Origin: Bacteroidales bacterium
Lineage (GTDB): Bacteria; Bacteroidota; Bacteroidia; Bacteroidales; P3
Length of the DNA stretch: 60,549 bases
Assembly: GCA_024681475.1 (NCBI GenBank)
Contig: JAILAT010000006.1
Location: forward strand, 1-60,549
Reading direction: 5' to 3'
A program made the translations under genes and the position numbers. The notes below the pieces were generated by a model that did not search any database, was not told where the DNA came from, and saw nothing but the letters and a program-made list of their open reading frames with translations. This document shows positions 3,362-24,746 of this stretch, one piece after another (position 1 is the first letter of the stretch; each line of letters opens with the position of its first letter).

Positions 3362-3386
3362 ATAATAAAACAGTCTGTGTTTGCTA

Positions 3387-3896: not shown

Positions 3897-3925
3897 ATTT
3901 TTTTTCCATTTTCATTTTTTTTTTC

Positions 3926-6060: not shown

Positions 6061-6081
6061 TCCATACAAACATTATTGCCC

Positions 6082-7116: not shown

Positions 7117-7142
7117 TACGTTGAAGCACGCTGCCGTATTAT
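7113..7142. terminator. Symmetric hairpin between convergent genes
   Basis: A perfect 8-bp stem (7113-7120 with 7135-7142) with a 14-nt loop covers the stop codons of both the plus-strand aldolase gene and the minus-strand transpeptidase gene. Flanking T runs are absent; it may act as a weak bidirectional 3'-end hairpin. Confidence 0.45.
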
Positions 7143-7750
7143 AGTCTAGGTGTGGCGGTCGCTTTGGTGGTGTCGGCATTGTCGAGTTCTCCATTGGCGA
7201 TAGCGTCTTTGACCGACGGAGTGATGACTACTCGCATACCGACATAAAGATAAGGCAACAGCTGCATCAGATCTTCGTTGCGGAGTCGGATACATCCCTC
7301 TGTGGCACGTGTACCGATACTCTCGGGCAGGTGAGTGCCATGAATGCCAATACCTTGTACATCGGGAACTTCGAGCCTGACAAAGTTGGGGCCATAGGCG
7401 CCTTCAATTTCACCTTTCCCGTCCTTGAAGTCATGCTTCCATTTGCTTGCATCTTCAATACTGACAATGGAAAAGACCCCTTCAGGAGTACGCATATCAC
7501 CCTCCATGCGTTTGTCCCCGTAGTTCAAGCCACAAGCGATAGGGTATTGGCAAGCCAATAAACCGTCGTATTTGTATACGCTCAATTGCATTTCCTGTTT
7601 GTCGATGATGACGAAAGCGGCGTTGTCAATCTGATCCACTTTGTCGCGATACCATTCTGTAAGATAAGCCATGGCTATGTATGGCAGTGCGATAACCACA
7701 ACCAGCAGGCTGATGGCAGCTATTCTTTTGATGTTGATTTTAAGATGCAT
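7139..7750 (-). CDS. Membrane-anchored YkuD-type L,D-transpeptidase
   Basis: A 203-residue protein with one N-terminal membrane helix (about 8-29) and a YkuD (ErfK/YbiS/YcfS/YnhG) catalytic domain at about 43-178. The conserved block is GIGIHGTHLPESIG followed by TEGCIRLRNED, giving H137/H140 and the nucleophile C153. The fold makes 3-3 peptide cross-links in peptidoglycan or attaches proteins to it, in the periplasm; which of these applies is not visible. It is the last gene of the minus-strand block. Its start overlaps the end of the preceding zinc-ribbon gene by 11 bp, which ties it to that operon. Confidence 0.88.
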   Translation of the reverse strand: MHLKINIKRIAAISLLVVVIALPYIAMAYLTEWYRDKVDQIDNAAFVIIDKQEMQLSVYKYDGLLACQYPIACGLNYGDKRMEGDMRTPEGVFSIVSIEDASKWKHDFKDGKGEIEGAYGPNFVRLEVPDVQGIGIHGTHLPESIGTRATEGCIRLRNEDLMQLLPYLYVGMRVVITPSVKDAIANGELDNADTTKATATPRL

Positions 7751-8951
7751 AATCTATGTCGAAATAGTCGTAGTTTTTATTGTATGTAACTGTCTCTATA
7801 TAGGGATAATCAACTGGTTGGTCAACTCGAAGTGTTGCACTATCATCCTGTATTGTGTAAAGAATGCAACGGTATTCTTTAGTGATATCATTAGTGATGA
7901 TTACGGCAAAAAAAGAGAATTTCTGGCCATCAATAGTTTTTAATCCTTCTCTTTTTTTGAAAGCATCAGGTCCATTGTCTTTTGGCCGGACTCCATTGGA
8001 ATAAATCTGCCAAGGGTTATCAATTTTGTTTCCCTCATCTCTCGTGTTGACATTCGGAAGGTTTTTCACGTGGTTCATCAACACTTTCTTTTCATAAGCG
8101 GTTGTGTATTTAATAATTGTATCGCATCCGGCATTTCCCCAAATACTGCTAAGAAGAATAAAGTCTTGTGTATTGAGTATATATTCTGTTTTGGCACAAC
8201 CTGGCTGTTTCTGGTCGTTGCTGTATGGGTGTGCAATCTTAACAAAACACCAGTCTGGTTCAAGATAAGGTACATTATACATTTTGTATACTTTTTTTAC
8301 TGGTGGATTGTATTTGTCCCCATAGTAAATCAGTTCTGTACCATAGTCTGCCCTGGTGACTTCGTTATATTTTTTCCTTGATTTGTCATTGTCGATGAAG
8401 CAGGTGCTACGAAGAGCCAAGTTGGGTTGTCCTATGACATAGTATCTTGGTGCCTCGCGGTCTATCTTCTTGGGAAGGTAAATGTTGTTATGATAGAAGA
8501 TGCCAAACACAGTCCCCGCTATAGCCAACAAAATACCTATGAGGATGAAGAAGATTATTGTGCCTGTTCTTCTCTTTTTGATGGGTATCGGAGTGATGGG
8601 TTTGGGAGTTGGTGTGATTGGCCTCTGTGGTGGCGTGGTGGCTTTTGGAGGCAAAGGTTGCTGTTGTCGAGGTGCTGGTTGTGAAGAAACCTGTGCCGAT
8701 TGTCTGGCGAGCTGGGACTCTTTTTTTGCTTTCTCCAATTCTGCGACTTTCTTTTCCAGTTCTGCGATTCGTTTTTTTGCCTCTTCACTTTCCACCTCTT
8801 TGACGACGACCTCTTTCTTCTCCTCTTTGGGGATGTCGAAAGTCAATATGTTGTCACACAGAGGACATTGGCGATTCACTTTTTCTCCAGGTCTGTATTC
8901 CTTTTCGTTGATCTCAACGATGGTATGGCATTTGGGGCACGATTGTTTCAT
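7740..8951 (-). CDS. Zinc-ribbon / coiled-coil / single-TM protein with periplasmic SH3-like region
   Basis: A 403-residue modular protein. Residues 1-41 form a zinc ribbon with C5, C8, C29 and C32 (CPKC and CPLC), resembling the MJ0042-type finger. A charged coiled coil covers ~45-82, a Pro/Gln-rich linker ends in TPIPIKK (120-126), and a membrane helix covers ~130-152. The ~250-residue C-terminal part would be periplasmic; its beginning, YYVIGQPNLALRST, resembles the first strand of bacterial SH3 domains, but I cannot assign the rest. The same TPIPIKK linker occurs in the zinc-ribbon protein at 11445-12704. The function is unknown; a sensor or scaffold coupling cytoplasm and periplasm is plausible. 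Confidence 0.85.
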   Translation of the reverse strand: MKQSCPKCHTIVEINEKEYRPGEKVNRQCPLCDNILTFDIPKEEKKEVVVKEVESEEAKKRIAELEKKVAELEKAKKESQLARQSAQVSSQPAPRQQQPLPPKATTPPQRPITPTPKPITPIPIKKRRTGTIIFFILIGILLAIAGTVFGIFYHNNIYLPKKIDREAPRYYVIGQPNLALRSTCFIDNDKSRKKYNEVTRADYGTELIYYGDKYNPPVKKVYKMYNVPYLEPDWCFVKIAHPYSNDQKQPGCAKTEYILNTQDFILLSSIWGNAGCDTIIKYTTAYEKKVLMNHVKNLPNVNTRDEGNKIDNPWQIYSNGVRPKDNGPDAFKKREGLKTIDGQKFSFFAVIITNDITKEYRCILYTIQDDSATLRVDQPVDYPYIETVTYNKNYDYFDIDYAS

Positions 8952-8960
8952 GATGTTTTT

Positions 8961-9845
8961 TTATGAACAAATGGCGTAAATCACCACTGCTAGGATGATT
9001 AATATTATCAGGCATCCACAACCAGTCTTCAGGTCGCTGGAGCTGCTTTCCGACTCTTTGTCATTATTGTCGTCCGTTGTAGACTCTTGGGTGGTTATTT
9101 CGTTGGAGTCTTCCTCCACCATAGTGACTACATCGTTTGTTTCGGGCGTGTAATTATTTCCATTGGAATCGGTATTCTCATAAACCACATTGACTTCCTC
9201 AATCTCAGAAGACTCATCCTCGTCTTCCTCGTGTGCTTCTTCTTCGTAAGGTTCAGGCTCAGCCATAGGAATGGTGCTCAGCAGTCTCTCCAGTTCTTGC
9301 TGATTACTGATCTTCACTTTGTAGCCGCTTTGTGGGCTATAGTTGCTTATGATGCTGGCTAGCTCCAATTGATTGAGTATCACATCGGCCTGTCGTTCCG
9401 AGATGCGCAATTTGCGGATTATCAAGCTTTCACTACAAAATTGAGCATTTACCACAATGCGTGCCGCATCGAAGAAATAGGGGTCTAGAGGTCCTCCAAA
9501 GTCAATGTTTTCTAGGCTTTCGGGTATTATGTTTGTTGTTGTGTTTCTTTTGGATTGACCATACTGCATTTGCCGACCTCCGACATGCTGAGAGGGTGAT
9601 TGATGGATGCCACGCTCGCGACTCGATATATTGGTGCGCAAGTTGGCAATCTCCTCTTTAAGGGCTTCCATCTCCTGCTTTAGCATTGTGTTCTGCTCCT
9701 GCAACTTCTGGTCTTCTTTGGGAATATGGAATGTGATGCGCTCTTCACACAAGGGACAGCGCTTGACGACGGTTTCGCCAGGCTTATATTCAGCTTCGTT
9801 GATCTCTACCAGTGTCTTGCACCTGGGACAACTCTTTTTTATCAT
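8961..9845 (-). CDS. Zinc-ribbon, tail-anchored protein with FtsK-gamma-like winged helix
   Basis: A 294-residue protein. A zinc ribbon (C6, C9, C30, C33) is followed by a coiled coil (~43-75). Residues ~119-180, with DPYFFDAARIVV and RISERQADVILNQLE, look like the FtsK gamma winged-helix DNA-binding domain. A long acidic, serine- and threonine-rich region (~193-270) then leads to a C-terminal membrane helix (~275-293), so it is tail-anchored with everything else in the cytoplasm. In FtsK this domain reads KOPS sites; here there is no motor domain. The gene lies 39 bp after its upstream neighbour and 9 bp before the next. I infer DNA or partner binding at the membrane. Confidence 0.8.
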   Translation of the reverse strand: MIKKSCPRCKTLVEINEAEYKPGETVVKRCPLCEERITFHIPKEDQKLQEQNTMLKQEMEALKEEIANLRTNISSRERGIHQSPSQHVGGRQMQYGQSKRNTTTNIIPESLENIDFGGPLDPYFFDAARIVVNAQFCSESLIIRKLRISERQADVILNQLELASIISNYSPQSGYKVKISNQQELERLLSTIPMAEPEPYEEEAHEEDEDESSEIEEVNVVYENTDSNGNNYTPETNDVVTMVEEDSNEITTQESTTDDNNDKESESSSSDLKTGCGCLIILIILAVVIYAICS

Positions 9846-9884
9846 TGCGCTACTGTTTGATATTCAATAATTAGTCGTTACTAT

Positions 9885-10592
9885 CTATTTAAGTATTACC
9901 TCCGCATTCTGCACGATGTGCCATGCCAACCCTTGTCGTTCTATCTTTCCGCGCTTAGTGGTAACCACTGCACTGAAGTTGTCGTTGCTGTTGTCCATGA
10001 TGTTGCATGCACATTCGATGAAGTCAGTCGTCGACGAGCGGGCGTAGTTGATGGTTGTGGCATTAGAGATAAATTCAAATTCACCACCGTTGTCGCCATG
10101 CAGTTCCAGTTTGTAAAACGATTTGTTGTTTGCTTGTGGCTGTGCATCGGTGAACAGGTCATCTTGAGGAAGCCCAGCATAAAGTGTTTTTGTTACAATG
10201 TTTTGAGGCTCTGCGGATACAGGCGCCTTTCGCACTGGTGGGGCAGGTGGTGCATTTCTCTGCATGGGTCGTGGCGTGGGACGGTAGTTTGGGCTCTGGT
10301 GTGTGACATCATAACTTACTGGCTCTGCCATAGGCTTTTGAGCCATGGACTGTTTTGTCTCTTGTCTTTGGCTTCTCAGCGTGTCCAGTTCTTCGCGCAT
10401 CTGCTCTATCTGTGCTTTCATCGTCTCCACATCTACCACCAGCTGTTTCACCAGCTGACTCTCTTCGCTGGGTACATGGAATTGGATGACCGTGTCGCAC
10501 AGCGTGCATTTCTCTTCGGCTATTGAGTCGGGTTGATATCGGCGCTCGTCAATATCTATCATCGTTTGGCATCTGGGACACTTTACTTTCAT
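9885..10592 (-). CDS. Soluble zinc-ribbon / coiled-coil / GEFEFIS-module protein
   Basis: A 235-residue protein with no membrane segment. It has a zinc ribbon (C5, C8, C29, C32), a coiled coil (~42-82), a Pro-rich linker and a C-terminal module at ~135-235 that runs from TLYAGLPQDDLFTDA through GGEFEFISNATTINYARSST to AWHIVQNAEV. This is the shortest complete architecture in the block, joining both shared modules in one cytoplasmic chain. Its ATG overlaps the stop of the upstream transpeptidase-like gene by 4 bp (ATGA), so the two are translationally coupled. The module matches no family I can name. Confidence 0.85.
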   Translation of the reverse strand: MKVKCPRCQTMIDIDERRYQPDSIAEEKCTLCDTVIQFHVPSEESQLVKQLVVDVETMKAQIEQMREELDTLRSQRQETKQSMAQKPMAEPVSYDVTHQSPNYRPTPRPMQRNAPPAPPVRKAPVSAEPQNIVTKTLYAGLPQDDLFTDAQPQANNKSFYKLELHGDNGGEFEFISNATTINYARSSTTDFIECACNIMDNSNDNFSAVVTTKRGKIERQGLAWHIVQNAEVILK

Positions 10593-11443
10593 ATTGTTTC
10601 GGCTTTATGGTTGATACTCAGATTTGTATATTCTTTGGTGGATGGAATGTCGAACAGGTGTGTGCTGTCATTGCGTGTGCCCATGATGATGAGGGGATGC
10701 TGCGCCGAGTCGAGCCAGTCCAACACTTTGATAACATTCTCTTTGTCCGTTGCCACACAACCCAGTGTGTTCTTGCTGCCCGAACCCCAGCAATGGAAAA
10801 AGATGGCGCTGCCTTCGCCTGGTTTGCATTCGGTGTTGTAGTCTATCACAAATGCGTAGTCATACACTGCGCTGCCGCTGCGATAGAGTTTCTCTCCTTT
10901 GTGAACCGATTGTCCGTCAGGTTCATAGGGCTTGTTGTACAGCGAGTCGCCTAGGTCGTCCACCCACACGGTCTGCGGCGTTACTGTTATCCGCTGCAGT
11001 TTGGCCGCATGGTCGTTTTTTTTACAGAAGTATTGATGAATACTGAACAGACCCGTCGGAGTTTTGCGGTCTCCTTCTCGCTTATGGCCATAGCGGGCAA
11101 AACCATTGTAGCCCAGCCCCACAGCGACGGAATCCAACTCATTGACAACCATCCATCCAGAGTCAGTCCTTTCGTAGGCGGTGAGCAGGGCTGTCGTGGC
11201 ATGGGCATCCTCGTTCCAGACCATCAGTAGCTGGCCGCAAGAGTCCATAGCAGGGCTGTACATTGCTGCCAGGTCGTCCACCAGCGTTGCATGGTAGGGC
11301 AAGTCGTTTGATGTTGTCACAGACTCTTCGATTGTCATTGCTGGACCATGGCCTCGCAGGCTCAGAGAACCTACAGCCAGCAGCAGAGCGGCTAGCAGAA
11401 AAGTACCGTCGATGATTATATCTTTTTTCTTCATGGTCATCAT
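10589..11443 (-). CDS. YkuD-like L,D-transpeptidase family protein (second copy)
   Basis: About 284 residues with an N-terminal signal/anchor (KKKDIIIDGTFLLAALLLAV). It has the divergent YkuD layout: GDRKTPTGLFSIHQYF near 125-139, YDYAFVIDYN near 194-203, then FFHCWGSGSKNTLGC with H217 and nucleophile C229. It is larger than the copy at 7139-7750 and belongs to the subgroup with an HCWG motif. The start at 11443 (or the codon at 11434) is preferred over an in-frame ATG at 11482, because the latter lies inside the upstream gene and adds a cysteine-rich stretch before the signal. The upstream gene stops 2 bp before it. Periplasmic location is inferred. Confidence 0.82.
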   Translation of the reverse strand: MMTMKKKDIIIDGTFLLAALLLAVGSLSLRGHGPAMTIEESVTTSNDLPYHATLVDDLAAMYSPAMDSCGQLLMVWNEDAHATTALLTAYERTDSGWMVVNELDSVAVGLGYNGFARYGHKREGDRKTPTGLFSIHQYFCKKNDHAAKLQRITVTPQTVWVDDLGDSLYNKPYEPDGQSVHKGEKLYRSGSAVYDYAFVIDYNTECKPGEGSAIFFHCWGSGSKNTLGCVATDKENVIKVLDWLDSAQHPLIIMGTRNDSTHLFDIPSTKEYTNLSINHKAETI

Positions 11444-11444
11444 A

Positions 11445-12704
11445 CTAATACACATCAAGCACCAATCGCACCGCAAAGCCATAATGCCGCTGGCTGTCGT
11501 CGTTGGCGGTTAGCTGGGTTCCATCGAAATCAAGGTTGTAAGCACGATCGTCGCCCTTGGGTGTTGAGCTCCAATAGTCACCGTCGGTGCCGTATTTGTC
11601 AACAGTGTAGCCATTGCGCTTTCCCGATGTGGGTAGGAATATCGCTCCGGCTCTTTCCATCATTTCCCAATCCCTACTGTCGTAATAGTTGCTGCCGTAG
11701 CTCCTTCCTGCAGTGTACGACACTCCTGACGGCTGCTCGAAATCGTCAGGAAGCACCACAACACCTTGCACACCGCAAACTGTGGCGTAGGCATACAACT
11801 GGCTGGCGTTGTGTCGTCCCGTGAACAGATACAGCCATTCGCTCATCGATGGAGTCCTCCAATTGCCCAGATTACAATAATCGCCCCAGTCGTTGAAACT
11901 GATGAATTCTGAATTGACGACGGCAAAATTGGCTGGGATATTGCCTGTTCCCCATGCAAATTGATCTAGCCATCCATTGTAGCTGTAACTAATATTCTCA
12001 TTTCCGGCCCCGATATAGTCATATTGGTGAGGGGCAAAACGCCATTTCTGGTCGCTGGGATTGTACTGTAGGTTGCCAGGAGCGAAATGCACTTTCTTTC
12101 CCGACCCAACAGAGAATTCATCGTGTCTTGTCATGGCTTCAGTGTACATTGTCTCCTCTTCAGCGATATATTCAGTAGCAGTAGTGTCATTGTCATTGTT
12201 GTGACTGCCAAACAGCGCAAACAGCGCAATCAGTATCACGGCAAGAAATACTAAGCTTCCTGCCACAAGGCCAATAATCAGTCCCTTATGGCTCTTTTTC
12301 TTTATGGGTATCGGCGTTACAGGCTTTCGCTCGTTGCTACCGGCAGCCACAGGCCGCTGCCGACTGGTCGTGTTTATTCTTTCCCCATTCTGTTCAGTCT
12401 GCACCCTTTGTCCACTCTGCCTAATCTGTCCTTCCTGTGTGGCGTTACCGGCTGTTTGTGTGGCTCCTCCAGCAGCACCCTTGCCCGCTTGTCCAGCTAT
12501 CACCTGGTTCATCTGCTCTTTCAGCGCCTCCAGTTCCTTGCGTAGCGCAGCGTTTTCCTTCGACTCCTCCTCTTTACGGCTAGGAATGGCAAAACTAACC
12601 TTATTGTCGCAAAGAGGACATTGCTTCTCCACAATGCTCCCAGGCTCATACTCTTTCTCGTTAATCTCTATGATTGTCTTACACTTCGGGCAACTCTGTT
12701 TCAT
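11445..12704 (-). CDS. Zinc-ribbon / single-TM protein with periplasmic FISUMP-like domain
   Basis: A 419-residue protein with a zinc ribbon (C5, C8, C29, C32), a coiled coil (~44-70), a Gly/Gln/Thr-rich linker ending in TPIPIKKK, a membrane helix (~140-166) and a periplasmic C-terminal domain (~195-419). The latter, with KKVHFAPGNLQYN, WRFAPHQYDYIG, WGTGNIPANF, WRTPSMSEWLYLF and YWSSTPKGDDRAYNLDF, resembles the Fibrobacter succinogenes major paralogous/DUF1566 family that is common in secreted Bacteroidota proteins and probably adopts a C-type-lectin-like fold. The first 75 bp are identical to those of the gene at 12810-13925. A ligand-sensing role is inferred. Confidence 0.82.
   Translation of the reverse strand: MKQSCPKCKTIIEINEKEYEPGSIVEKQCPLCDNKVSFAIPSRKEEESKENAALRKELEALKEQMNQVIAGQAGKGAAGGATQTAGNATQEGQIRQSGQRVQTEQNGERINTTSRQRPVAAGSNERKPVTPIPIKKKSHKGLIIGLVAGSLVFLAVILIALFALFGSHNNDNDTTATEYIAEEETMYTEAMTRHDEFSVGSGKKVHFAPGNLQYNPSDQKWRFAPHQYDYIGAGNENISYSYNGWLDQFAWGTGNIPANFAVVNSEFISFNDWGDYCNLGNWRTPSMSEWLYLFTGRHNASQLYAYATVCGVQGVVVLPDDFEQPSGVSYTAGRSYGSNYYDSRDWEMMERAGAIFLPTSGKRNGYTVDKYGTDGDYWSSTPKGDDRAYNLDFDGTQLTANDDSQRHYGFAVRLVLDVY
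12630..12704 (-). repeat. 75-bp identical repeat, copy 1
   Basis: This stretch, the start of a zinc-ribbon gene from its ATG, is identical base for base to 13851-13925. It encodes the first 25 residues, from MKQSCPKC to PGSIV. Confidence 0.95.
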
Positions 12705-12763
12705 GATAGTTCCATTTGTGATTGATGGTATCCTCTATAATATATTACTAGTGTCCTCGCTAA

Positions 12764-12779
12764 AACCCCGTTAGGGGAT
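12764..12779. terminator. Small intercistronic hairpin
   Basis: CCCC (12766-12769) and GGGG (12774-12777) pair around a GTTA loop, with A/T pairs outside. It lies between two zinc-ribbon genes. It is too small to be a firm terminator call. Confidence 0.3.
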
Positions 12780-12809
12780 TTCTTTTATCCTAAATTAGTG
12801 TTAGTCCTA

Positions 12810-13925
12810 TTATTTTGTAAATTTTACCTCTGCTTTTTCTATAATTATCCAGTCATTTCCAGCTCTTATGACTATTCCCTTACGAGTGGTGATTACATTG
12901 CTGAATCCGTTGGTTTTCTCCACGATTTTGCAAGCACGTTCGATTTGTAGGGTCGTTGACTTGGCCAAATTGATGGTCTTGGGATTGGAAATAAACTCAA
13001 ATTCGCCTCTGATTGAATTCTGCAACTCAATTTTGAAAAACGAATTGTTTTTGAGGATGGGGCTGGGAATGATAAACCTGTTTCCAAATGGAAGTCCGGC
13101 ATAGCGCACATTCGAGACCGAATCGTTAGATTTGCTAGACTCGCTCTGTTGGAGGTTGGGTGAAGCAACTTGTTTTGTATTTCTTTTCGAGACTGAATCG
13201 TTAACTATGCTAGACTTGCTTTGTTGAAGGCTGGGTAATGCATCTTGTTTCGTCTTTCTTTGCAACTCAATGTTTTTCAGCTCTATGATTTCGTTCTTTA
13301 TCTTTCTCTGTCTATGGATGCTGACTACAACGATAATAATGCCAACAATAAGCAATAGCCATAAAGGCCAATAGAATCGCCAATAGAATAATCCAACATC
13401 AAAAACAAAATATAAATTGAGAATTTTAAATAAGGATAATAATATTATCACGAATCCTAATAATAGAAAAGATATTATTGCTCTTCGTTCCCTTATTAAA
13501 AAATGATCAAGCTTTGTTTTGTATACAGAACGACAATCATTCATTCCTTTGGTGTCGTTTTGATCGGGATTGCATGCCGTGTTTTCTTTCCTTTCGTGGG
13601 ATTGATTGTTGCTCTTTTGCGAATTATTGTTAGTGATTTGAGAGGCAATTAAGGAAGATTGCTTTTTTATTAATCCAAGTGTCTCGGACAGTGTCTCTTC
13701 TAACTTCTTGTTACTGGCCTGCACTTCACCGAGTTGCTTTTTGATGTCTTCCAATTCTTTTCCCTGTTTGGCGAATGCGGCAGCATCTATAGGGTCATTT
13801 CCTCCTATCGTAAAAGAAACACTGGAACTGCAAAGTGGACACAATTTTTTCACAATGCTCCCAGGCTCATACTCTTTCTCGTTAATCTCTATGATTGTCT
13901 TACACTTCGGGCAACTCTGTTTCAT
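12810..13925 (-). CDS. Zinc-ribbon / two-TM / GEFEFIS-module protein
   Basis: A 371-residue protein. It has a zinc ribbon (C5, C8, C29, C32), a coiled coil (~48-95), an Asn/Ser-rich linker, two membrane helices (~148-173 and ~180-203), a second short coiled coil, a tandem 25-residue repeat (~223-272, TKQDALPSLQQSKSS and TKQVASPNLQQSESS), and the C-terminal GEFEFIS module (~272-371, ending NDWIIIEKAEVKF). Because the two helices bring the chain back, zinc ribbon and module both lie in the cytoplasm, as in the soluble relative at 9885-10592. Base composition is more AT-rich in the middle than in neighbouring genes. The function is unknown. Confidence 0.85.
   Translation of the reverse strand: MKQSCPKCKTIIEINEKEYEPGSIVKKLCPLCSSSVSFTIGGNDPIDAAAFAKQGKELEDIKKQLGEVQASNKKLEETLSETLGLIKKQSSLIASQITNNNSQKSNNQSHERKENTACNPDQNDTKGMNDCRSVYKTKLDHFLIRERRAIISFLLLGFVIILLSLFKILNLYFVFDVGLFYWRFYWPLWLLLIVGIIIVVVSIHRQRKIKNEIIELKNIELQRKTKQDALPSLQQSKSSIVNDSVSKRNTKQVASPNLQQSESSKSNDSVSNVRYAGLPFGNRFIIPSPILKNNSFFKIELQNSIRGEFEFISNPKTINLAKSTTLQIERACKIVEKTNGFSNVITTRKGIVIRAGNDWIIIEKAEVKFTK
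13111..13260 (-). repeat. Two tandem 75-bp coding repeats
   Basis: Units 13111-13185 and 13186-13260 are direct repeats starting TTCGAGACCG and TTCGAGACTG. They encode the 25-residue linker repeat just before the C-terminal module, so linker length can change by slippage without breaking the frame. Confidence 0.85.
13851..13925 (-). repeat. 75-bp identical repeat, copy 2
   Basis: Identical to 12630-12704; see that entry. Similarity drops sharply right after the repeat (PGSIVEKQ against PGSIVKKL and onward). Confidence 0.95.
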
Positions 13926-13957
13926 TATCTTCAGTATTTCTTATACAATTCAAAAGA

Positions 13958-13986
13958 GAGGGGCACCGTTTTCTCTTGCGCCCCTC
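13958..13986 (-). terminator. Hairpin after the aspartic protease gene
   Basis: A 7-bp GC-rich stem (13980-13986 with 13958-13964) with a 15-nt loop is followed on the minus strand by TCTTTT. It may partly terminate or stabilise the upstream message. Confidence 0.45.
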
Positions 13987-13992
13987 GTCTCT

Positions 13993-14619
13993 TCATTCTA
14001 TGATTAGCAGGTTGTTCTGGTAGTCTATCGACACTCGGTTGAACTGGCTCAATGCCGATTGTCCCAACAGCAGCGGTGCCACTTGGTTGTCCACAATCGA
14101 GGCCTCGACATTCTCCAGGACCAAGTCCCCAATCTCTACTTTTTTCAATCGCACCATGAGCGATTCTGTAGCGTCGCCTTGTGCATCATACACGAGTTCG
14201 GTTCCTATCAGATCATCTTCTGTAATTGTGCCTTGTTTGATAAGAAACATGGCCTCGGTGGCCGACAACGAGATGATGGAGGCTCCGGTGTCGTAGATGA
14301 ACTTCATGGGCACATCGTTGATTTTTACCGTTAGGTAATACACCCCATCTTCTTTGGTTAGAGGAACAGTGGTGGCACCATGGCTTCTTCTATGACTGCG
14401 TGTGGTTTCATTGTTGCGCGATTGGTTGTTGCGTGAACGGTCGCGCAAAGTTTCGTAGTCATCACTGCTGTTGTCATAGTATGTTTCATCGTCATAATTA
14501 TTGTAATCGTCCCTCGTATGTCTGTCGTGTCGTGTTGGAGTAAAACACGATGCCATCAATACCACAGCCATTAAGTTAACTGCTACGAATTTCACCTTTT
14601 TTGTTGTCTTTACAGCCAT
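13993..14619 (-). CDS. Lipoprotein with retropepsin-like aspartic protease domain
   Basis: A 208-residue protein. A signal peptide ends in a lipobox (LMAS before C25), followed by a low-complexity D/N/R/S-rich tether (~30-85) and a clan AA aspartic protease domain (~88-208). The catalytic motif is D110-T-G-A-S in FIYDTGASIISLSA, and the LLLGQSALSQFNRVSIDY segment matches the C-terminal hydrophobic part of the retropepsin-like bacterial families (compare TIGR02281). One motif per chain means it would work as a dimer. Location would be the periplasmic or outer-membrane lipoprotein pool. Proteolysis of block partners is possible but not shown. Confidence 0.87.
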   Translation of the reverse strand: MAVKTTKKVKFVAVNLMAVVLMASCFTPTRHDRHTRDDYNNYDDETYYDNSSDDYETLRDRSRNNQSRNNETTRSHRRSHGATTVPLTKEDGVYYLTVKINDVPMKFIYDTGASIISLSATEAMFLIKQGTITEDDLIGTELVYDAQGDATESLMVRLKKVEIGDLVLENVEASIVDNQVAPLLLGQSALSQFNRVSIDYQNNLLIIE

Positions 14620-14679
14620 TTTTTATGCCTTCCTTTTTTTGTGTGATTATCTCCTTTTAGGTGATTGTAGAATAACAAG

Positions 14680-14705
14680 GTTGGGGGTGTTTATGCACCC
14701 CCAAC
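14680..14705 (-). terminator. G/C hairpin after the GEFEFIS gene at 14724-15809
   Basis: A perfect 10-bp stem (GTTGGGGGTG with CACCCCCAAC) and a 6-nt loop lie 19 bp past the stop. It has no T tract. The same stem follows the next gene upstream (15717-15747), showing that the 3' end and hairpin were copied together. Confidence 0.65.
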
Positions 14706-14723
14706 GCATTGTCTTCATAAAAA

Positions 14724-17019: not shown

Positions 17020-17076
17020 GATTGTTCGTTTTTATATTATATACTATACTTATTTCTCAAGTGTATTTTGTAGAAT

Positions 17077-17105
17077 GCCAGCCGCGGGAGCAGCCCGCGG
17101 CTGGC
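17077..17105 (-). terminator. Perfect GC-rich hairpin after the Hsp70-like gene
   Basis: A 12-bp perfect stem (GCCAGCCGCGGG at 17077-17088 with 17094-17105) encloses a 5-nt loop, starting 8 bp past the stop at 17114. There is no T tract on the minus strand, so it may stabilise or attenuate rather than end the message. Confidence 0.6.
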
Positions 17106-17113
17106 TAGGGGCA

Positions 17114-20100
17114 TTAGCCTTGATATTTCCAGTTCGTTATCATGCGCTGGATCATCAGCTTCAGCGGGTAGAAGAACAGCGATCCTTCGAAGTCGCGGTC
17201 TTGGCGGTTTTCCTTGATGAGGTCGGCACGGTTGAGGTTGTCAATCTCCGTGTCAAGCAGTGACATAAGGTTCTCCTGCTGGATGCGTTCCTTGAAGTAA
17301 CTTATGCTGTCCGTAGAACAACGATATTCGTTCTCGAAGTCCAATTTGGCAACGCATTCCATGAAACGCTTGTTGAAGTCTTCCACCACATTGCACACTT
17401 CTTCCTTTACGGTGATGTCACTAATGTCTCTGTACTTCAGTGATTTCGGTGCTCCGCTCTCTTTCACCAGCGAGTAGCGGATGGTGTCTCTGTTTACATT
17501 GTTCACATTGGCGTAGCGCACCGCAACATCAGCGTTGTCATTGGGCAGCGGCTCGTGCAGAGCACCCTTGGCGGTAATCTGCTTCGGCTCTTTGCGCTCA
17601 ATGATAATCTCGATGGGATGGTCGTATTTGTATGTTCCATCCGAGAACTGCTCGATAAGGTCGGTCGTGTAGCGTGCCAGAATGCCGTCTTGGCCAATGA
17701 CATTCAGCATCTTCGAACCCGTACCACTGAACATGATGCGTTCCGGTTTCTTCTCGTAGCCGTAGTCTTTCATCAACCGTATCAGATAAAAGATGATGGC
17801 GGCGTAGAAATACATAAAGTAGATGTGAACGTCTTTGTCCTTGCGCAGCATGTGGTTGTACGACTTCAGTTCAGCTTCTACCTTGGCCAGCATCGGGTTG
17901 TCTTCCAGTGCGAAGAGTATAGAGTTGGCCTCCGTGGCCGGACGGTCGCCCTGACACACGTTGTCTATCATCTTCACCACAGGGCGATACTGCTCTTGGA
18001 ACATGCTGCTGAACTTCTTGTAGTATCTCTGCACGATGGGGTTCGTGTTGGCAAAGCCCGCACCAAAGATGACGTCGGCGGCAAAGCGGAACGACGTGAA
18101 CTTGATGTCATCATTGTTGCGTTTGATGACCACGTCGCACGTGCCACCTCCAATATCGATGGAGATGCCCATGTCGTTCAGGTCGCGCTTCATGTCGCGA
18201 TAGTACAGCAGCGGAGCCACCGACTCGGTCATGCGGCGCACATTCTCCTCGTGGTGGAAATACTTGGTGTAGTATTTTCTCCACTCCTCGTCGAACTCTT
18301 CCACATCGCTCTGGCGCATACTGAGCGGATATGTCCAAACAAACGAGCTGTTTCTCAGGTTGCCTTCTTGCTCCAGTACGTAGGCGCGAGCCAGCAGCAC
18401 CAGCTCTTTGATGAACGCCTTGGCCCAGTTCTGAGCTGACGGGTCGTCGCTCCATTTCAGGTTGGCAGCTATCATGTTGTCGCTACCGCAGTCCTCGCGA
18501 CCGTAGATGAACGGGATGTTCACCTGCATCAGCGCATTAGGCAGATTGTTGTTGTTCAGTGCTTTGTTCATCAATACCACGGTGCGCAACGGGAAACGGT
18601 AGGTGCCGCCAATCTCGTAGGGCAGGAACTCCTGTTTCATCCACGCCTTCATCAACGCCACATCGGGGTCGTTGGTGGTGTCGTTCTCGTCGATGGTCGA
18701 TACGATACTCTTCTTCAGTTTCAGCTCTTTGCGCTCCTGGCTGCCTACCTCGCTGATAGACACGTACGAGTTTGTGGTACCAAAGTCGAATGCGAAACGG
18801 TAGCCCATTCCGCCCTCTTCGGGGTATATCCACTTGGGTATCAGCACGGCATCGTGCGTCTGTGTGCCGTTGGTTACTTTCATGCGCAGATAGTCGAAAG
18901 AGTTGTCCAAGCTGTAGTAGAACGAGTTTCCTCTCGTGCGCTCGAAATCTCGCTCCCATTCCAGTTGGTCGCCCCTTGAGTTCATGGCTGAAATCTCTAC
19001 GCGGAACGGGTTGGGGATGTTGTTCAACACCTCCAGGTTGTAGTGGTTGCTGTTGTCTCTCAGGCGCATGAAGGGGAAGATGTTCACGGCCACGGGGCAT
19101 GCCACTATGCGGCCAACTGCTTCTCTGCACTCCGACGAGCCGGCACTGCGCAATATCTCATCGTTGGTCTCGGTGTCGGTCTGGGCACGGTATTTGCGCA
19201 CCAGCTTCACGCTCTTGCCACCCTTTACGGGGATGCTCAGCGTAACCACCACGGTCTCCACGAAGTTGCGGCCCTGCTCCTCGAATTTGATGCGAGGCTG
19301 GCTGCCGTCTTTGTCTTTTGAACCGTTGGGGTCATAAAGGCTTTCGATGTCGAAGTATTCGAAATAATTCGGCCTGATAGGCAGCAAATAGCTGTTCTTG
19401 GTCTCAGGCGAGAAAAAGTGTGCTTTGTCAATGTTGTAGGGCAACTGTACCAGCACATCACTCAGGAAGTCCATTTCGCAGAGCCATCCGTCGGGATAGT
19501 CGACAATAGTACCAGGCAAGATGGTGTGAGTCTCGTTCTGGCGCAGGTCGCTGTAGTCAATGGCGTGCCTGTTGTGGTCGTATTTCACGTTGCCCGACGA
19601 ATATTTCCAGCCGTCATAGCGCTGGTTGTTCGTCAATACGAGCGGCATCTTGTTACTCTTCTCCGAGTTGATGATGAAATCGCTTTCTTCAATGGGACCG
19701 GCTCCCTCTTTGCGACGATAGATTACTCTACCATAGAGTTGTATCAGCTTGTCGTTGTCATACTCTTCATAGTCTTCTCGCATCATGTCGTCGCTGTAGG
19801 GACGGTAAGTCAGCGCATTGATTTCAGCATACAGTTGCTTGTTTGTGCTGGCGATGGCCTCTAACTGGCTCTCCAGATAGCGCTGGAAACCTTGCAGCTG
19901 CTCTTCGTTCTCACGGATGATGTAAGAGGTCTGACGGTAGACGTATTTGATGAAGTTCTCATCACGCTCTGCCAACGAGCGGCGTTTCGAGAACATCGGT
20001 ATCTCACCTTCTATCATCAGGTCCTGGAATTTCGTGTAGCTCGGCGTTGCCAGGAAGAACGATGTCGGCGAGGTGCAGCCCATGGGCTCGTTCATGTAAG

Positions 20101-20551
20101 TGAGGATGAAGATGGCCTCGTTCTTGTCAAAACCATAATGTTCCTGACGCAGGTAAAGCTCCAGTGCTTTGCCATACAGTTTGTGTGCGTCAATGCCGTT
20201 TTTCAACTCTTCCACCATCGCATGACGGTCCCAGCGTATCACGCGGAAGTTGCGGTCTCCGCTGAAGGCGCTCTCAAAGTAGAACTGGAACAGGTCCAGC
20301 GAATGCGACACCAGTATCAGGTCGCGCAAGTCGCGCTCTGCGCGCGGATTGGCCACATTGGCAAAAGCCTTCTGCACCAGCTCGAAGCGGGCGAAAGGCG
20401 AGGGGATGGATACTTTGGGTTCTATTGATTTATTGCCACCAGGGTGGGCTTCATCTTTCAGCTCTTGGTCTATGCGGGCGGCGTTGAGTTCGTGGTACGA
20501 CTCCCAGCCGTTCTGGGTCGCAAGTTCACCATACATTAAAAAATTACTCAT
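17114..20551 (-). CDS. Large protein with Hsp70/actin-type ATPase domain
   Basis: 1145 residues. The first ~575 residues match nothing I recognise. From ~577 there is an actin/Hsp70-fold ATPase: phosphate-1 motif GYRFAFDFGTTNSYVSI (~588), phosphate-2 motif ISIDIGGGTCDVVIKRN (~800) and adenosine motif IMFSGTGSKMLNVIG (~940). No C-terminal substrate-binding domain of the DnaK type follows, and no J-protein or GrpE gene is near. It starts 27 bp after the tubulin-like gene and so is probably cotranscribed. It has no signal peptide or membrane helix, so it is cytoplasmic. I infer an ATP-driven assembly or remodelling factor that works with the GTPase. The distant resemblance in fold is to SrfB/Hsp70-like proteins; orthology is not claimed. 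Confidence 0.85.
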   Translation of the reverse strand: MSNFLMYGELATQNGWESYHELNAARIDQELKDEAHPGGNKSIEPKVSIPSPFARFELVQKAFANVANPRAERDLRDLILVSHSLDLFQFYFESAFSGDRNFRVIRWDRHAMVEELKNGIDAHKLYGKALELYLRQEHYGFDKNEAIFILTYMNEPMGCTSPTSFFLATPSYTKFQDLMIEGEIPMFSKRRSLAERDENFIKYVYRQTSYIIRENEEQLQGFQRYLESQLEAIASTNKQLYAEINALTYRPYSDDMMREDYEEYDNDKLIQLYGRVIYRRKEGAGPIEESDFIINSEKSNKMPLVLTNNQRYDGWKYSSGNVKYDHNRHAIDYSDLRQNETHTILPGTIVDYPDGWLCEMDFLSDVLVQLPYNIDKAHFFSPETKNSYLLPIRPNYFEYFDIESLYDPNGSKDKDGSQPRIKFEEQGRNFVETVVVTLSIPVKGGKSVKLVRKYRAQTDTETNDEILRSAGSSECREAVGRIVACPVAVNIFPFMRLRDNSNHYNLEVLNNIPNPFRVEISAMNSRGDQLEWERDFERTRGNSFYYSLDNSFDYLRMKVTNGTQTHDAVLIPKWIYPEEGGMGYRFAFDFGTTNSYVSISEVGSQERKELKLKKSIVSTIDENDTTNDPDVALMKAWMKQEFLPYEIGGTYRFPLRTVVLMNKALNNNNLPNALMQVNIPFIYGREDCGSDNMIAANLKWSDDPSAQNWAKAFIKELVLLARAYVLEQEGNLRNSSFVWTYPLSMRQSDVEEFDEEWRKYYTKYFHHEENVRRMTESVAPLLYYRDMKRDLNDMGISIDIGGGTCDVVIKRNNDDIKFTSFRFAADVIFGAGFANTNPIVQRYYKKFSSMFQEQYRPVVKMIDNVCQGDRPATEANSILFALEDNPMLAKVEAELKSYNHMLRKDKDVHIYFMYFYAAIIFYLIRLMKDYGYEKKPERIMFSGTGSKMLNVIGQDGILARYTTDLIEQFSDGTYKYDHPIEIIIERKEPKQITAKGALHEPLPNDNADVAVRYANVNNVNRDTIRYSLVKESGAPKSLKYRDISDITVKEEVCNVVEDFNKRFMECVAKLDFENEYRCSTDSISYFKERIQQENLMSLLDTEIDNLNRADLIKENRQDRDFEGSLFFYPLKLMIQRMITNWKYQG

Positions 20552-20578
20552 AATTCTTTGTCGTTTTGATGGTTAATT

Positions 20579-22114
20579 CTACAAATAAGTGTCCATGTCG
20601 AAGGTCTCGGGCAGCAGCTTGTCGAGAGCTTCGTTGATAATCTTGTACCAACGGGCCTCTTGCGTCGGCATGTCTCCGTTGCGGTCGGCAGCCTTGTCCA
20701 GCTCACTCTTGATGTCGCTAACCTTCAGCGATTTCATGCCGAATGTTTTCTTGCGCGTCGTAGGCTGTTTGCGGAAGCAGTCGGAATAGTCGTCGCCGCT
20801 CACAGGACCGTAAGGCGCTAGGTTGTGTGCTGTTGCACCATGACCGCCCATCTCTTTCATCCACTGGTCGAACTTGGTGAAGAATTCCGTCAAGTCACGG
20901 TCATTGTAGAGGCTGGCTTGGAACTTGGGCGAGTGCTTTTTCGAGAATGGATTGTCCAACATACCCGATAGGTGACGGCGCATGAAGTGACTCATTATGA
21001 AGAATTTCATCAGCGGTTTCATCACCTGGCGGTTGGATTGCTTCGACAAGCCCGCAAAGGTCACCAAGCCGCTGGTGGTGTGTAGCGTATAGGCCTTGAA
21101 GCGCTGGTCTGCCGAGCCTTCGGCAACGATGCGGCCGTCTTTCTCGGCGACTGTCAGCGTCTGTGCATCCTCACTCAGGAAGTCGAAGATGGCCAGTGCA
21201 CCGGCGAACTCCACCAGGTGTGCCTTGTTGTCCTTCTGGTTGTCGGCACCCGAGTCGTTCTTGAAGGGCTGCGTGCCTACGGGGTCGGCCACATAGTAGG
21301 TGCGGTTCACGTAGGGGTTCAGGTTGTCCTCATAGTAGCGCAGCGCTGAGCGCGTCTTGATGAGGAATTCGTTCTGGTTGATGACCGAGTTCTCGTCGTC
21401 GGCTATGGAGAAGTATGGCATCACCACCAGCGATCCGATGGGCGAACGCGACACCGAGGTCTGGCCCGTGTCCATGTTCTCGGCGTGACCCAGGTCGCGT
21501 ATCGAGGTGATGAACAGCGGCAGGCCGGCGGCACCCGTGCCACCGAAGATGGAGCCGATGAAGAAGATGCGGTCGCCTTCATGGTAGGCGGCGCGGAAAG
21601 CCTTGAAGTCCTCCGAGTTGCGGAACTCGTTGAGGGCTACGCAACCGATGTTCGGAGCGCCGAAGAAACCCTCTTTCATATTGGTCTTCAGCTCGCTGGG
21701 CGAGAAGAGCATCTCAGCCATCAAGCGGTTCTCTTCGCTCATCTGGTTCATGCCGATGAAGTTGCCGAACTGGTTTGTGCTCACGCGTTGCATACGGAAG
21801 AAGAAGCTGTCGGTAGGCACCGTGGCAGCGTCAATGTCGTGCAGTGTCTCAATCTTCACGCCATAGAAACCTTCCTCATTGGGATTCTTGTCGTGGATTT
21901 TTTTGTGCATGGCACGGTACTTGTCCAGCAAGGTCTTCACCTGCTGCAAGCCGGCGTTCTCCTCATGAGGGTCAACAATGATAGGTACTATCGAGAGGTT
22001 CTCGATAGGTTTGCCTCTGTGGTCCACAGGACGAGCTCCTGCAGCCAACTGGAATATCATGGAGGTCAGCACTCTCGAGCCTGTACCTCCTATTGCGAAA
22101 ACAAATAATCTCAT
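20579..22114 (-). CDS. Tubulin/FtsZ-like GTPase (Tubulin_2-type)
   Basis: 511 residues. The N-terminus RLFVFAIGGTGSRVLTSMIF has the nucleotide-binding first loop of the tubulin superfamily (GGTGSR at 9-14). D48 in IVPIIVDPHEEN follows the third strand, and the glycine-rich signature GSIFGGTGAAGLPLF (187-201) corresponds to the GGGTG[ST]G loop of FtsZ and tubulin. It is longer than FtsZ and lacks an FtsZ-type C-terminal tail, and it fits the poorly studied 'tubulin-like' group (Pfam Tubulin_2). It lies between a four-helix membrane protein gene (23 bp upstream) and the Hsp70-like gene (27 bp downstream). Cytoplasmic. Whether it polymerises cannot be seen from the sequence. Confidence 0.83.
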   Translation of the reverse strand: MRLFVFAIGGTGSRVLTSMIFQLAAGARPVDHRGKPIENLSIVPIIVDPHEENAGLQQVKTLLDKYRAMHKKIHDKNPNEEGFYGVKIETLHDIDAATVPTDSFFFRMQRVSTNQFGNFIGMNQMSEENRLMAEMLFSPSELKTNMKEGFFGAPNIGCVALNEFRNSEDFKAFRAAYHEGDRIFFIGSIFGGTGAAGLPLFITSIRDLGHAENMDTGQTSVSRSPIGSLVVMPYFSIADDENSVINQNEFLIKTRSALRYYEDNLNPYVNRTYYVADPVGTQPFKNDSGADNQKDNKAHLVEFAGALAIFDFLSEDAQTLTVAEKDGRIVAEGSADQRFKAYTLHTTSGLVTFAGLSKQSNRQVMKPLMKFFIMSHFMRRHLSGMLDNPFSKKHSPKFQASLYNDRDLTEFFTKFDQWMKEMGGHGATAHNLAPYGPVSGDDYSDCFRKQPTTRKKTFGMKSLKVSDIKSELDKAADRNGDMPTQEARWYKIINEALDKLLPETFDMDTYL

Positions 22115-22137
22115 ATTATTATAGTTTTATTCATTAA

Positions 22138-22620
22138 TTAAAAAGGAGTGGTCGAGCAGTGAGCACTGAGACGCTTTACCGAGAAGCATACGATGATGTA
22201 ATACACCAAGGTGATGAATGTAACGATGATATTGAAACTCTTGAGAGCTGTCTCAACTAAAATGTCTAGGTTCTTGTCTAAGAACGTACCGCTGCAGGTG
22301 TAGAAACTTACAACAGGGCTGAGTGCCACAACTATAACGATTGTAATCAGCCATTGCCACCAGCGGTGGAAGCGGTCAATGACCCAATAGTAAAGGATGG
22401 CGACGCCCCAGCACAATAGGCTGATGTAACAAGCCACGGCCAGATAGAGGTTGTTGTTGTACATCAGGTTAGCGAACTGCTTATCCAACCTCCACGAGAT
22501 GTTGTCAAAGAGGTTCAAGTCGTTGTTCAACGTACTGGAAACAATTAACAGAGCGGTGATAACCAACCCTGCGAACAGAAAGACCCAGTCAATGGTCTTT
22601 GAATACTTAACGTTTTTCAT
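22138..22620 (-). CDS. Four-helix membrane protein
   Basis: 160 residues with four predicted membrane helices: DWVFLFAGLVITALLIVSS, YLAVACYISLLCWGVAILYY, WLITIVIVVALSPVVSFYTC and NIIVTFITLVYYIIVCFS. N- and C-termini would both be cytoplasmic. I recognise no family and see no catalytic motif. It sits 56 bp after the lipoprotein gene and 23 bp before the tubulin-like gene, so it is a good candidate membrane partner of the GTPase, linking it to the periplasmic lipoprotein. That link is inference. Confidence 0.8.
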   Translation of the reverse strand: MKNVKYSKTIDWVFLFAGLVITALLIVSSTLNNDLNLFDNISWRLDKQFANLMYNNNLYLAVACYISLLCWGVAILYYWVIDRFHRWWQWLITIVIVVALSPVVSFYTCSGTFLDKNLDILVETALKSFNIIVTFITLVYYIIVCFSVKRLSAHCSTTPF

Positions 22621-22676
22621 GTTGCTGTGTTTTAATTATTATTGTTTTGTTTTGATTAATTCACATTAATAGCGTC

Positions 22677-24185
22677 TTATTTGCGCTTGATACCCATGGT
22701 GATTTCAAAGTATTTGGGTTTCTCCGACACTGAGTAGTAGGAGTTGTAGATGCCCTCCATCATGGTCTTGAAGCCCCATGTGGTAGTCTTGAATTTCGGA
22801 TCGGTTAAACGGGTATCGTCTTCGGAAGTCGACTCTTCAATCCATTTGGGAAACTCATTGAAGAGCGAGATGTGTAACTTTTCGTTCATCGGTTTCTCGT
22901 CGGTAGAGAGCACCAGCAAATGGGTGGCATTTTTCACATAATTGGTCACGTCGGTAGTGCGGTTCTCCTTTTTCAGAGGAATGACCTCCTGGATTTTCCA
23001 GCCGCCTTCGTTGTCGTCTATCATGTAATGGCTCACGTCGGTCAAGTAACTTGGGTCGACAATGATGTTGCTCAAATCCAAGGCCAAAGTAATAATAGTG
23101 CTGTTGTTACCGCCGCGGCTACGGCTGACAGACAGCTTCTCTATGTTGTGTATCTGATCTTTGCCGTCGCGCGCTGCCGAGAAACTGGCTTGGGTCATGC
23201 CGAAAGGATCGGTGTAGAGTACCGACCATATCGGTTCTTTGGATTGGTGTGTGAAGCAGTGATAGTTCTCATAGCCTTTCAGCGCGCTGAAGGTACGGAA
23301 ATCTTTGTACAGCGGGTCGTTGAAAAGTCTCTGCATGACGTTGCTCTTGGCAACAATCATAAAATATACAGGACGTGGGCCGGTATAGTCTTTTCCGCCG
23401 AGAGGCTCGTTGTAGGGATAATATTTGCCCTTGAAGCCCACATTGCACTTCACAATGATGACATCTTTGTCTTTATATTTTTTGAACTTGCCACGTGTCG
23501 ACTCTGATTCCAGGTTCAGCAACGCTTCGCGTGAATACTCCAAATTGTTGGGAGCCGAATAGATAAGGTCTGACACAAGGATGCTCACTTCGTTGTTGTT
23601 CGAGCGGCTCAGAATAGAGTCGAAGATGGCTGAGAAATAAGTCCACTTCGTGTCTCCTTTTTCCTTGATGGAGTCCATCTGGTAGATGCGCTGGCCGCTG
23701 GTGGTTCCAAACAGCAGGTTGTCCAGCGAGATATTGGCGGGATAGACATCGTCGTTCACAATAAAGAGAAGGTTGCTTTCGGATTCTTTGTTCGGTATGG
23801 TGTTGATGATGTTGCCAATGGCGGTACTGAAATAACCATTGGTTTGAGGATTGTCGTAACCGAACATACTGCCGCTGCGCTCCAAGTAAAATTGGAATGA
23901 TATGGGCTCTTTTTTCTCTTTTTTTAGATTGAAAACCAATGGTTCTGAACTACGCCACTTCTTGGATGCATATTTTTGAACGTATGTTTGCAATATGGCA
24001 TCATCAACCTCGCCATCGTCGCCCAGGCATTTCTTCTCCTGTTTGGCTGCTGCGACCAGAAGAGCATATTCTGTCTCGTCCACCACTCCATCTTCTGCAA
24101 CTTCGTTGATGGTACCGTCTAATTCGCTCTTGCAGGCCCACAGGAGCATGCAGGCTCCCAATAAAATTAGTAATTTTTTCTTCAT
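22677..24185 (-). CDS. von Willebrand A-like lipoprotein, first gene of the block
   Basis: 502 residues from the ATG at 24185, chosen because it begins a standard lipoprotein signal (KKKLLILLGACMLLWAC, acylated C18); an in-frame ATG 27 bp upstream adds RRHRQ. Two acidic segments (EDGVVDETEYALL and GDDGEVDDAILQ) near the start vaguely recall EF-hand loops. The domain beginning near residue 94 has FYLERSGSMFGYD, a MIDAS-like motif with E102 in place of the usual Asp and S104/S106 kept, followed by a possible MIDAS Thr in KWTYFSAIFDSIL and an Asp in VSILVSDLIYS. This points to a vWA-fold binding protein in the periplasm. It leads the operon with the tubulin-like and Hsp70-like genes. Confidence 0.78.
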   Translation of the reverse strand: MKKKLLILLGACMLLWACKSELDGTINEVAEDGVVDETEYALLVAAAKQEKKCLGDDGEVDDAILQTYVQKYASKKWRSSEPLVFNLKKEKKEPISFQFYLERSGSMFGYDNPQTNGYFSTAIGNIINTIPNKESESNLLFIVNDDVYPANISLDNLLFGTTSGQRIYQMDSIKEKGDTKWTYFSAIFDSILSRSNNNEVSILVSDLIYSAPNNLEYSREALLNLESESTRGKFKKYKDKDVIIVKCNVGFKGKYYPYNEPLGGKDYTGPRPVYFMIVAKSNVMQRLFNDPLYKDFRTFSALKGYENYHCFTHQSKEPIWSVLYTDPFGMTQASFSAARDGKDQIHNIEKLSVSRSRGGNNSTIITLALDLSNIIVDPSYLTDVSHYMIDDNEGGWKIQEVIPLKKENRTTDVTNYVKNATHLLVLSTDEKPMNEKLHISLFNEFPKWIEESTSEDDTRLTDPKFKTTTWGFKTMMEGIYNSYYSVSEKPKYFEITMGIKRK

Positions 24186-24746
24186 TGTGTTTTGTCTGTG
24201 TCTCCGGCTCAAGAGACATTATTTAATTCAAACATGGGGAAGCAGAACCTCGCTCGAATGATTTTACCCTGTTTGGCTATGATGGTCGGCTTGTTTGTAG
24301 CTCGAAATAAACCAATGGCCAAACTATGATAATTGCACGCAAAACGTACTCCCTCAGTATTTTACAAATAATATTGTGTATTACTTGCGTCTGCAAATAT
24401 ACACTTTTTTCTTTATCTTTTTATATTTTTCATAATTATTTTTTTTAAGAGATTATTTCCATTTTGGCCTTCGGAGTTATTCTCCTGCTCATCCTTTGGC
24501 CTCACGAAAACGTGTAAATCCTGTAAATATCTAGTGAGCAAGCTCACGGCGAGCCGGAGGCATGCTAAATTAGGAACAAACAATATCCGCGAAGCGAAAT
24601 AATTTATAAGATTTCCTAGATTTCAGCCGCGAAGCGGCTAGGAGATCCACGCCGAAGGCGCGCGAAGCCAAAAATCGACAAGATCAACAAGATCTCGCGA
24701 GGCGAAGTCGAGCAGGAGCATCCACCGCAGATCAGCAGACAAGGTC
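24186..24746. other. Intergenic region with promoter and clustered small palindromes
   Basis: This 561-bp region separates the histidine kinase gene from the minus-strand block. The part next to the lipoprotein gene (to ~24450) is AT-rich and carries a promoter-like box. The part at ~24530-24720 is GC-rich and full of short inverted repeats: GTGAGCAAGCTCAC near 24534, AGCCGCGAAGCGGCT near 24625, CGCCGAAGGCG near 24650. The heptamer GCGAAGC occurs three times (24589, 24629, 24662). No protein gene is evident. Confidence 0.7.
24394..24401 (-). promoter_or_regulatory. Probable -7 box for the tubulin/Hsp70 block
   Basis: TATATTTG on the minus strand fits TAnnTTTG and lies about 210 bp before the lipoprotein start. 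No clear TTTG is seen at the -33 position, so confidence is moderate. Confidence 0.45.

Follow-up and report, generated by a model that had tools for sequence, protein, structure and literature searches.

A tubulin-like GTPase and Hsp70-like ATPase operon with exchangeable downstream genes in Bacteroidota

Gene content and conservation of the core

A 60,549-nt stretch of contig JAILAT010000006.1 of a Bacteroidales bacterium (hereafter the window, that is, the whole stretch of DNA analysed) carries at 7139-24185 a block of 14 genes, all on the minus strand and together covering approximately 17 kb (Table 1). An earlier description made from the letters alone (the sequence-only reading) had placed a same-strand block here, and the block is real, although it holds 14 genes rather than 13. 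It begins with five genes that form a conserved core, in the fixed order vWA-like lipoprotein, small membrane protein, tubulin/FtsZ-fold GTPase (Tub), Hsp70/actin-superfamily ATPase (Hsp) and a membrane protein ending in a cytoplasmic module that we call GEF. That these five genes constitute a real system is well supported.

A genome-collection scan with the Tub alignment returned at least 433 relatives, the best 80 loci of which were analysed; by their titles these span Prevotellaceae, Muribaculaceae, Bacteroidaceae, Pedobacter, Siphonobacter and Cryomorpha (named strains include Pedobacter namyangjuensis 5G38, Siphonobacter sp. BAB-5405 and Cryomorpha ignava QSSC 1-22). Hsp follows Tub in 80/80 loci (median gap 39 bp, range -77 to 1358), and the labelled core genes are co-oriented in every one. 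The vWA and membrane genes lie upstream of Tub in 78/80, both misses (L056 and L072) starting at contig ends, and in 74/80 the first labelled gene beyond Hsp encodes a GEF module; five of the six remaining loci stop inside Hsp or no more than 110 bp from it, and the sixth (L068) lacks a GEF gene. Given the many near copies among them, the 80 loci do not represent 80 independent events.

The two nucleoside triphosphatases (NTPases) also co-occur at the level of genomes. Strong Hsp matches (E <=1e-90) are present in 9 of 395 Bacteroidota genomes and strong Tub matches in the same nine; within the family the count is 9 of 149 (G665 and G650 being treated as the same records as L012 and L013). An extra strong Tub match without a strong Hsp match was found in G536, where the locus (L126) is decayed: Tub is split across two open reading frames, those of MotA, MotB and retropepsin are shorter than in other copies, and no Hsp or GEF gene was found. 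Three genomes (G456, G332 and G431) have weak Tub matches, each with an adjoining distant Hsp gene, a 502-residue frame of G444 matches Hsp at 25 bits, and eight more family genomes gave weak Hsp matches only (1.9e-8 to 9.1e-6), which we assume to be other actin-superfamily proteins. At the G332 locus (L125, ~1172-10172) the distant Tub and Hsp genes lie beside a TerD gene (Pfam 1.4e-70) and two adjacent genes that start in a similar way, which may point to a connection with Ter stress operons. Recurrence of the core genes together across Bacteroidota, which the sequence-only reading had named as support for a system, is what these 80 loci and 395 genomes display.

The vWA-like lipoprotein has a MIDAS-like E-x-S-x-S motif in which Glu replaces Asp; among 79 relatives, S-x-SM is present in all, E-x-SGSM in 77 and a lipobox-like signal in 76, and the canonical D-x-S-x-S form is absent (D-x-SGSM in 0/79). 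Tub has the tubulin/FtsZ GTPase fold with a GGTG-type glycine loop (T1-like IGGTG, T4-like FGGTGAAG) and belongs with FtsZl1/Tubulin_2; the corresponding Pfam family, PF13809, gave no match to the window protein; of 19 family members it matched five at E <=0.01 (best 1.3e-5), and some homologues carry a precomputed PF13809 annotation. Its predicted model contains helices at 358-380, 406-423, 465-479 and 485-504.

Hsp resembles Hsp70/DnaK in having the three nucleotide-binding motifs of the superfamily (at ~589-594, 799-803 and 942-947 of 1145 residues) and in its best PDB profile match, Hsc70, which covers positions 785-892 only. Unlike DnaK, in which an N-terminal ATPase domain is followed by a substrate-binding domain, Hsp has its ATPase domain from about residue 583 onwards, behind a long N-terminal stretch that matched nothing, and no operon protein matches DnaJ or GrpE in Pfam. 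The three motifs are present in 77, 76 and 77 of 81 Hsp members, and three of the misses (L045, L049 and L071), common to each motif, are contig-cut sequences. MreB was also among the PDB matches, and among 12 members weak matches were seen to FtsA (2/12), Ppx-GppA (2/12) and EutA (1/12). PDB profile searches with the vWA, Tub and GEF alignments gave no credible match, and Pfam, NCBIfam and PADLOC scans of the window vWA, Tub and Hsp proteins gave none above cut-offs (the NCBIfam and PADLOC scans took in 10 of the 14 operon proteins). One locus (L089, 9822-16236) has two successive Hsp70-like genes (1219 and 908 residues) in one operon. A Bacteroidetes-type promoter motif occurs four times in the window against 1.7 expected, and none of these matches is near the operon.

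Shared module and exchangeable outputs

The GEF module is restricted to the operon: four copies lie within it (Table 1), and none was found in the rest of the 87%-complete window genome. In a protein search with the GEF region, 8 of 39 candidates matched (three being the window's own), none of which has a Pfam domain. Both GEF and zinc-ribbon modules are fused to variable parts; the zinc-ribbon profile broadened strongly on iteration, so the CxxC pattern was relied on instead. The predicted topologies of the proteins are mutually consistent, as the sequence-only reading held.

Downstream of the core the genes are exchangeable between loci, with YkuD, retropepsin and several zinc-ribbon genes varying. 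A YkuD gene (Y203 profile) is present in 3 of the 80 loci and a retropepsin gene in 8; both kinds, YkuD with two genes, are indeed in the block, as first described, yet they are accessory and not part of the core set in which they had been placed. In a sister clade, and also within the window's genus, a MotAB/ZorAB-like stator (that is, a MotA/MotB-like pair with an ion-channel Asp and an OmpA-like domain) replaces the zinc-ribbon, SH3-like and YkuD genes of the window. Against PADLOC, the MotB-like genes match ZorB1 (best E 2.3e-15) and one of the MotA-like genes matches ZorA2 (8.8e-5). The window operon itself has no gene with a MotA- or MotB-like label, and this version of the system is visible only in relatives. 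On the tree, 13 of 98 rows carry the MotAB label and five rows without it fall inside the MotAB clade, at least one of which (L127) ends inside Hsp; branches are long and deep joins unsure. Two further loci have, downstream of the GEF gene, a transmembrane (TM) protein with a WG repeat (L117 11605-13020 and L122 12051-13352), which, standing at the position of MotAB or the zinc-ribbon genes, is a third output type.

Some of the variable window proteins have sub-threshold domain matches in themselves or in relatives. The 7740..8951 product has no SH3 match, and its L013 relative has an SH3_3 match at 2.4e-4. In the 8961-9845 product an FtsK_gamma-like winged helix (4.8e-7, 29.8 bits against a Pfam cut-off of 30.6) sits between the zinc ribbon and the C-terminal TM segment; an FtsK-type DNA role was dropped, as this was a single match below threshold in one protein.

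Table 1 Features of the gene block in the window
Feature	Coordinates	Strand	Length (amino acids)	Remarks
Whole block	7114..24749			Bounded by the lyase (match ends at 7113) and histidine-kinase (match ends at 24750) genes
Core 1, vWA-like lipoprotein	22677..24185	-	502	Could instead start at a TTG at 24212
Core 2, small membrane protein	22138..22620	-	160	Four predicted helices
Core 3, tubulin/FtsZ-fold GTPase (Tub)	20579..22114	-	511	FtsZl1/Tubulin_2 kind
Core 4, Hsp70/actin-superfamily ATPase (Hsp)	17114..20551	-	1145
Core 5, signal/TM protein	15766..17019	-	417	C-terminal cytoplasmic GEF module
Second TM protein with GEF module	14724..15809	-	361
Retropepsin-like lipoprotein	13993..14619	-	208	Pfam gag-asp_proteas 1.1e-15
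Zinc ribbon, hydrophobic TM region, GEF module	12810..13925	-	371
Zinc ribbon, TM, FISUMP/Lcl_C-like outer domain	11445..12704	-	419	Outer-domain match below cut-off
YkuD L,D-transpeptidase-like protein	10589..11482	-	297	Pfam 1e-6
Soluble zinc ribbon with GEF module	9885..10592	-	235	No predicted TM
Zinc ribbon, FtsK_gamma-like winged helix, C-terminal TM	8961..9845	-	294
Zinc ribbon, TM, periplasmic domain	7740..8951	-	403
Last gene of block	7139..7750	-
GEF module copy 1	15772..16056	-		E 1e-36
GEF module copy 2	14730..15011	-		E 1.1e-31
GEF module copy 3	12819..13100	-		E 1.5e-27
GEF module copy 4	9891..10178	-		E 2e-34

Presence and absence of the block

The block is flanked by a beta-eliminating lyase gene and a histidine-kinase gene, which lie 17.6 kb apart in the window. 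Among 59 genus genomes (its own included), 47 gave a lyase match and 52 a kinase match, and in 12 of the 58 congeners the two genes converge on a shared contig with less than 2.2 kb between them (20, 27, 28, 39, 149, 501, 703, 903, 1188, 2021, 2058 and 2109 bp), that is, the block is absent from this site. Two of these 12 (G665 and G666) carry the operon elsewhere. In G600, G630, G645 and G662 the flanks lie on one contig but far apart, and the remaining congeners are uninformative, with the flanks on different contigs or one match missing. Three of eight fetched empty sites (L184-L186) hold different small genes (152, 431 and 269 residues) at the lyase/kinase junction, which indicates that the site is variable. 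The block edges coincide with the edges of the gene set, which fits the YkuD genes belonging to the block, and the block may have been gained in one step. Taken with the recurrence of core order and strand and the confinement of GEF to the operon, its absence from the site in 12 congeners bears out the earlier view that these genes form a real system.

The edges carry no repeats beyond chance: neither junction region contains repeats of >=14 bp, and the longest exact matches between the two (9 bp direct, 8 bp inverted) were reached by 139 and 185 of 189 random pairs, respectively. Carriage by phages or plasmids is unsupported: the 50,697 phage records searched contain no match to Hsp, and the 72,556 plasmid records contain a single one (NC_022111.1 625284-628715, 30.9% identity), on a 1.77-Mb Prevotella replicon. 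Three loci are in viral contigs. A PADLOC scan of 86 of 101 flanking proteins matched 47 families at 1e-10, the commonest in 2/86, with no control set for comparison.

Relation to known systems and proposed role

Comparisons with published systems draw here on portions of the articles cited. The sequence-only reading regarded the system as undescribed, which is too strong, as operons of FtsZl1/Tubulin_2 with vWA and OmpA-family genes had already been published, as predicted membrane-remodelling systems. FtsZl1 was defined in 2010 by Makarova and Koonin, together with the vWA, GTPase and OmpA genes found beside it (PMC2875224), and in 2023 Tubulin_2 proteins were set apart as FtsZ-like and used as a tree root (PMC9871819). 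The operon resembles the FtsZl1 (PF13809) operons, for which a membrane role was predicted and whose Figure 1 list includes a Bacteroides caccae sequence (PMC2875224), in that a divergent tubulin GTPase adjoins a vWA gene (vWA-like here, in 78/80 loci) and membrane genes, with OmpA-family genes in some. It differs in that a 1145-residue Hsp70-like ATPase and then a GEF-module protein follow the tubulin gene, and in that its tubulin has 511 residues against 1051 for the FtsZl1 type protein. Most FtsZl1 members have an extended coiled coil after the GTPase domain (PMC2875224). The term 'hsp70' is absent from the main text of that article, and the Hsp partner may be among the unnamed families A1-A2 and B1-B9 of its supplement, which lies outside our coverage. 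In the literature searched, supplements being outside its coverage, no description of Tub-Hsp70-vWA-GEF with a MotAB/ZorAB alternative was found, nor one that brings the Hsp70-like partner, the GEF adaptor and the swappable output together.

Other systems share single themes. The vWA protein is linked genetically to a 5:2-type motor, as are the vWA force transducers of TolQ motors (PMC12204202); the latter are, in the part of that article covered, themselves TM motor partners, whereas the present protein is a lipoprotein and those relatives that have a motor encode its MotB-like part separately. As in Zorya, whose ZorAB motor reportedly defends against phages only if it can bind the wall and conduct ions (PMC11890865), relatives of the operon have a MotA/MotB-like pair with a channel Asp and an OmpA-like domain; unlike in Zorya, the motor is absent from the window and is tied in relatives to Tub-Hsp-vWA-GEF. 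ZorC, ZorD and ZorE were not noticed in the gene maps, in which no profile search was aimed at them.

We tentatively favour, at somewhat less than even confidence, the reading that the block encodes an accessory trans-envelope NTPase machine that senses local disturbance of the envelope or wall and answers with a wall-directed response. Both output sets point to peptidoglycan (the OmpA-like MotB domain in one, SH3-like and YkuD proteins in the other), which, together with the ZorAB precedent (PMC11890865), favours wall surveillance. In such a machine, Tub and Hsp would assemble in the cytoplasm, at the inner membrane, into a complex switched by GTP and ATP, and the vWA lipoprotein, as a periplasmic or outer-membrane partner, may be connected to it via the small membrane protein. 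Inside the cell, GEF modules and zinc ribbons would dock membrane-spanning output proteins onto the NTPase pair. These outputs would act on or read peptidoglycan, the window using SH3-like and YkuD proteins together with a protease in the periplasm, and the sister clade an ion-driven MotAB/ZorAB-like stator with an OmpA-like wall-binding domain. Sensed disturbance would be met on the spot by wall remodelling, proteolysis or ion-driven motion.

A Zorya-like defence against phages or predators, in which the core detects wall puncture and triggers a local effector (in the window, wall cross-linking and proteolysis in place of the motor), is conceivable, if doubtful. The ZorB1 and ZorA2 matches, the sporadic presence in the phylum and the family, the variable site and the domain themes held in common with NTP-dependent conflict systems (PMC7159879) speak for it; however, no ZorC, ZorD or other nuclease effector was noticed in the gene maps (no profile search was made), PADLOC gave weak matches only among the operon proteins scanned and none for vWA, Tub or Hsp, and no PADLOC family recurred in more than two of the flanking proteins. 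We consider it unlikely that the system serves cytoskeleton-like membrane or wall remodelling under stress, with Tub polymerising at the membrane and Hsp positioning it as FtsA does for FtsZ. The tubulin fold, the FtsA, Ppx-GppA, EutA and MreB matches of Hsp and the membrane remodelling proposed for FtsZl1-vWA-OmpA operons would suit such a role, yet FtsZl1 has no recognisable filament elements (PMC2875224, within its text), Hsp is closest to Hsc70 rather than FtsA, and the sporadic presence argues against a basic role in cell shape.

Kaur et al. described in 2020 GTPase-centric (DO-GTPase/GAP1) conflict systems with tubulin and HSP70 (PMC7159879), of which the GAP1-N1 type occurs in Bacteroidetes and the GAP1-N2 type has tubulin and HSP70-GrpE as non-overlapping themes, mainly in firmicutes and actinobacteria. 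Given that tubulin, HSP70, vWA, trypsin, zinc-ribbon and FGS modules likewise occur with variable parts in these published classes, and that GEF and zinc ribbons are fused to variable parts here, the block could be a chaperone-thresholded conflict system, with Hsp restraining variable effectors to which zinc-ribbon and GEF modules act as adaptors. This seems improbable, as none of the 14 operon proteins matches a P-loop GTPase in Pfam at E 1 (a divergent one could escape), none matches MoxR, the Hsp ATPase domain is C-terminal and DnaJ/GrpE matches are lacking. If unrelated envelope genes merely lay side by side on one strand by chance, variation in YkuD, retropepsin and several zinc-ribbon genes between loci would be in keeping with it; for the core this reading is rejected on the basis of the fixed order in 80 loci and the co-occurrence of Tub and Hsp in the same nine genomes, and we regard it as exceedingly improbable overall.

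Beyond the favoured trans-envelope machine, it is possible, though less likely than not, that the operon represents a new machine class in which Tub and Hsp jointly gate interchangeable wall-facing outputs via a shared cytoplasmic adaptor domain. It would then be a cytoskeletal switch with two NTPases, serving immunity or repair of the envelope, and its outputs would be an ion-driven ZorAB-like stator in the one clade and, in the other, the set of zinc-ribbon, SH3 and L,D-transpeptidase proteins. The operon also ties tubulin-like and Hsp70-like NTPases to ZorAB-like motors. The function of FtsZl1 was left open when the family was proposed in 2010; a fixed Hsp neighbour, an operon-only adaptor and a swap between stator and wall enzymes within one genus open the way to direct experiments on prokaryotic tubulins.

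Elsewhere in the window, 37453-57713 holds a surface-polysaccharide-like cluster with glycosyltransferases, an MBOAT gene and an ABC ATPase, in which an ATP-grasp (ATPgrasp_Ter)/HAD fusion lies at 56166-57713.

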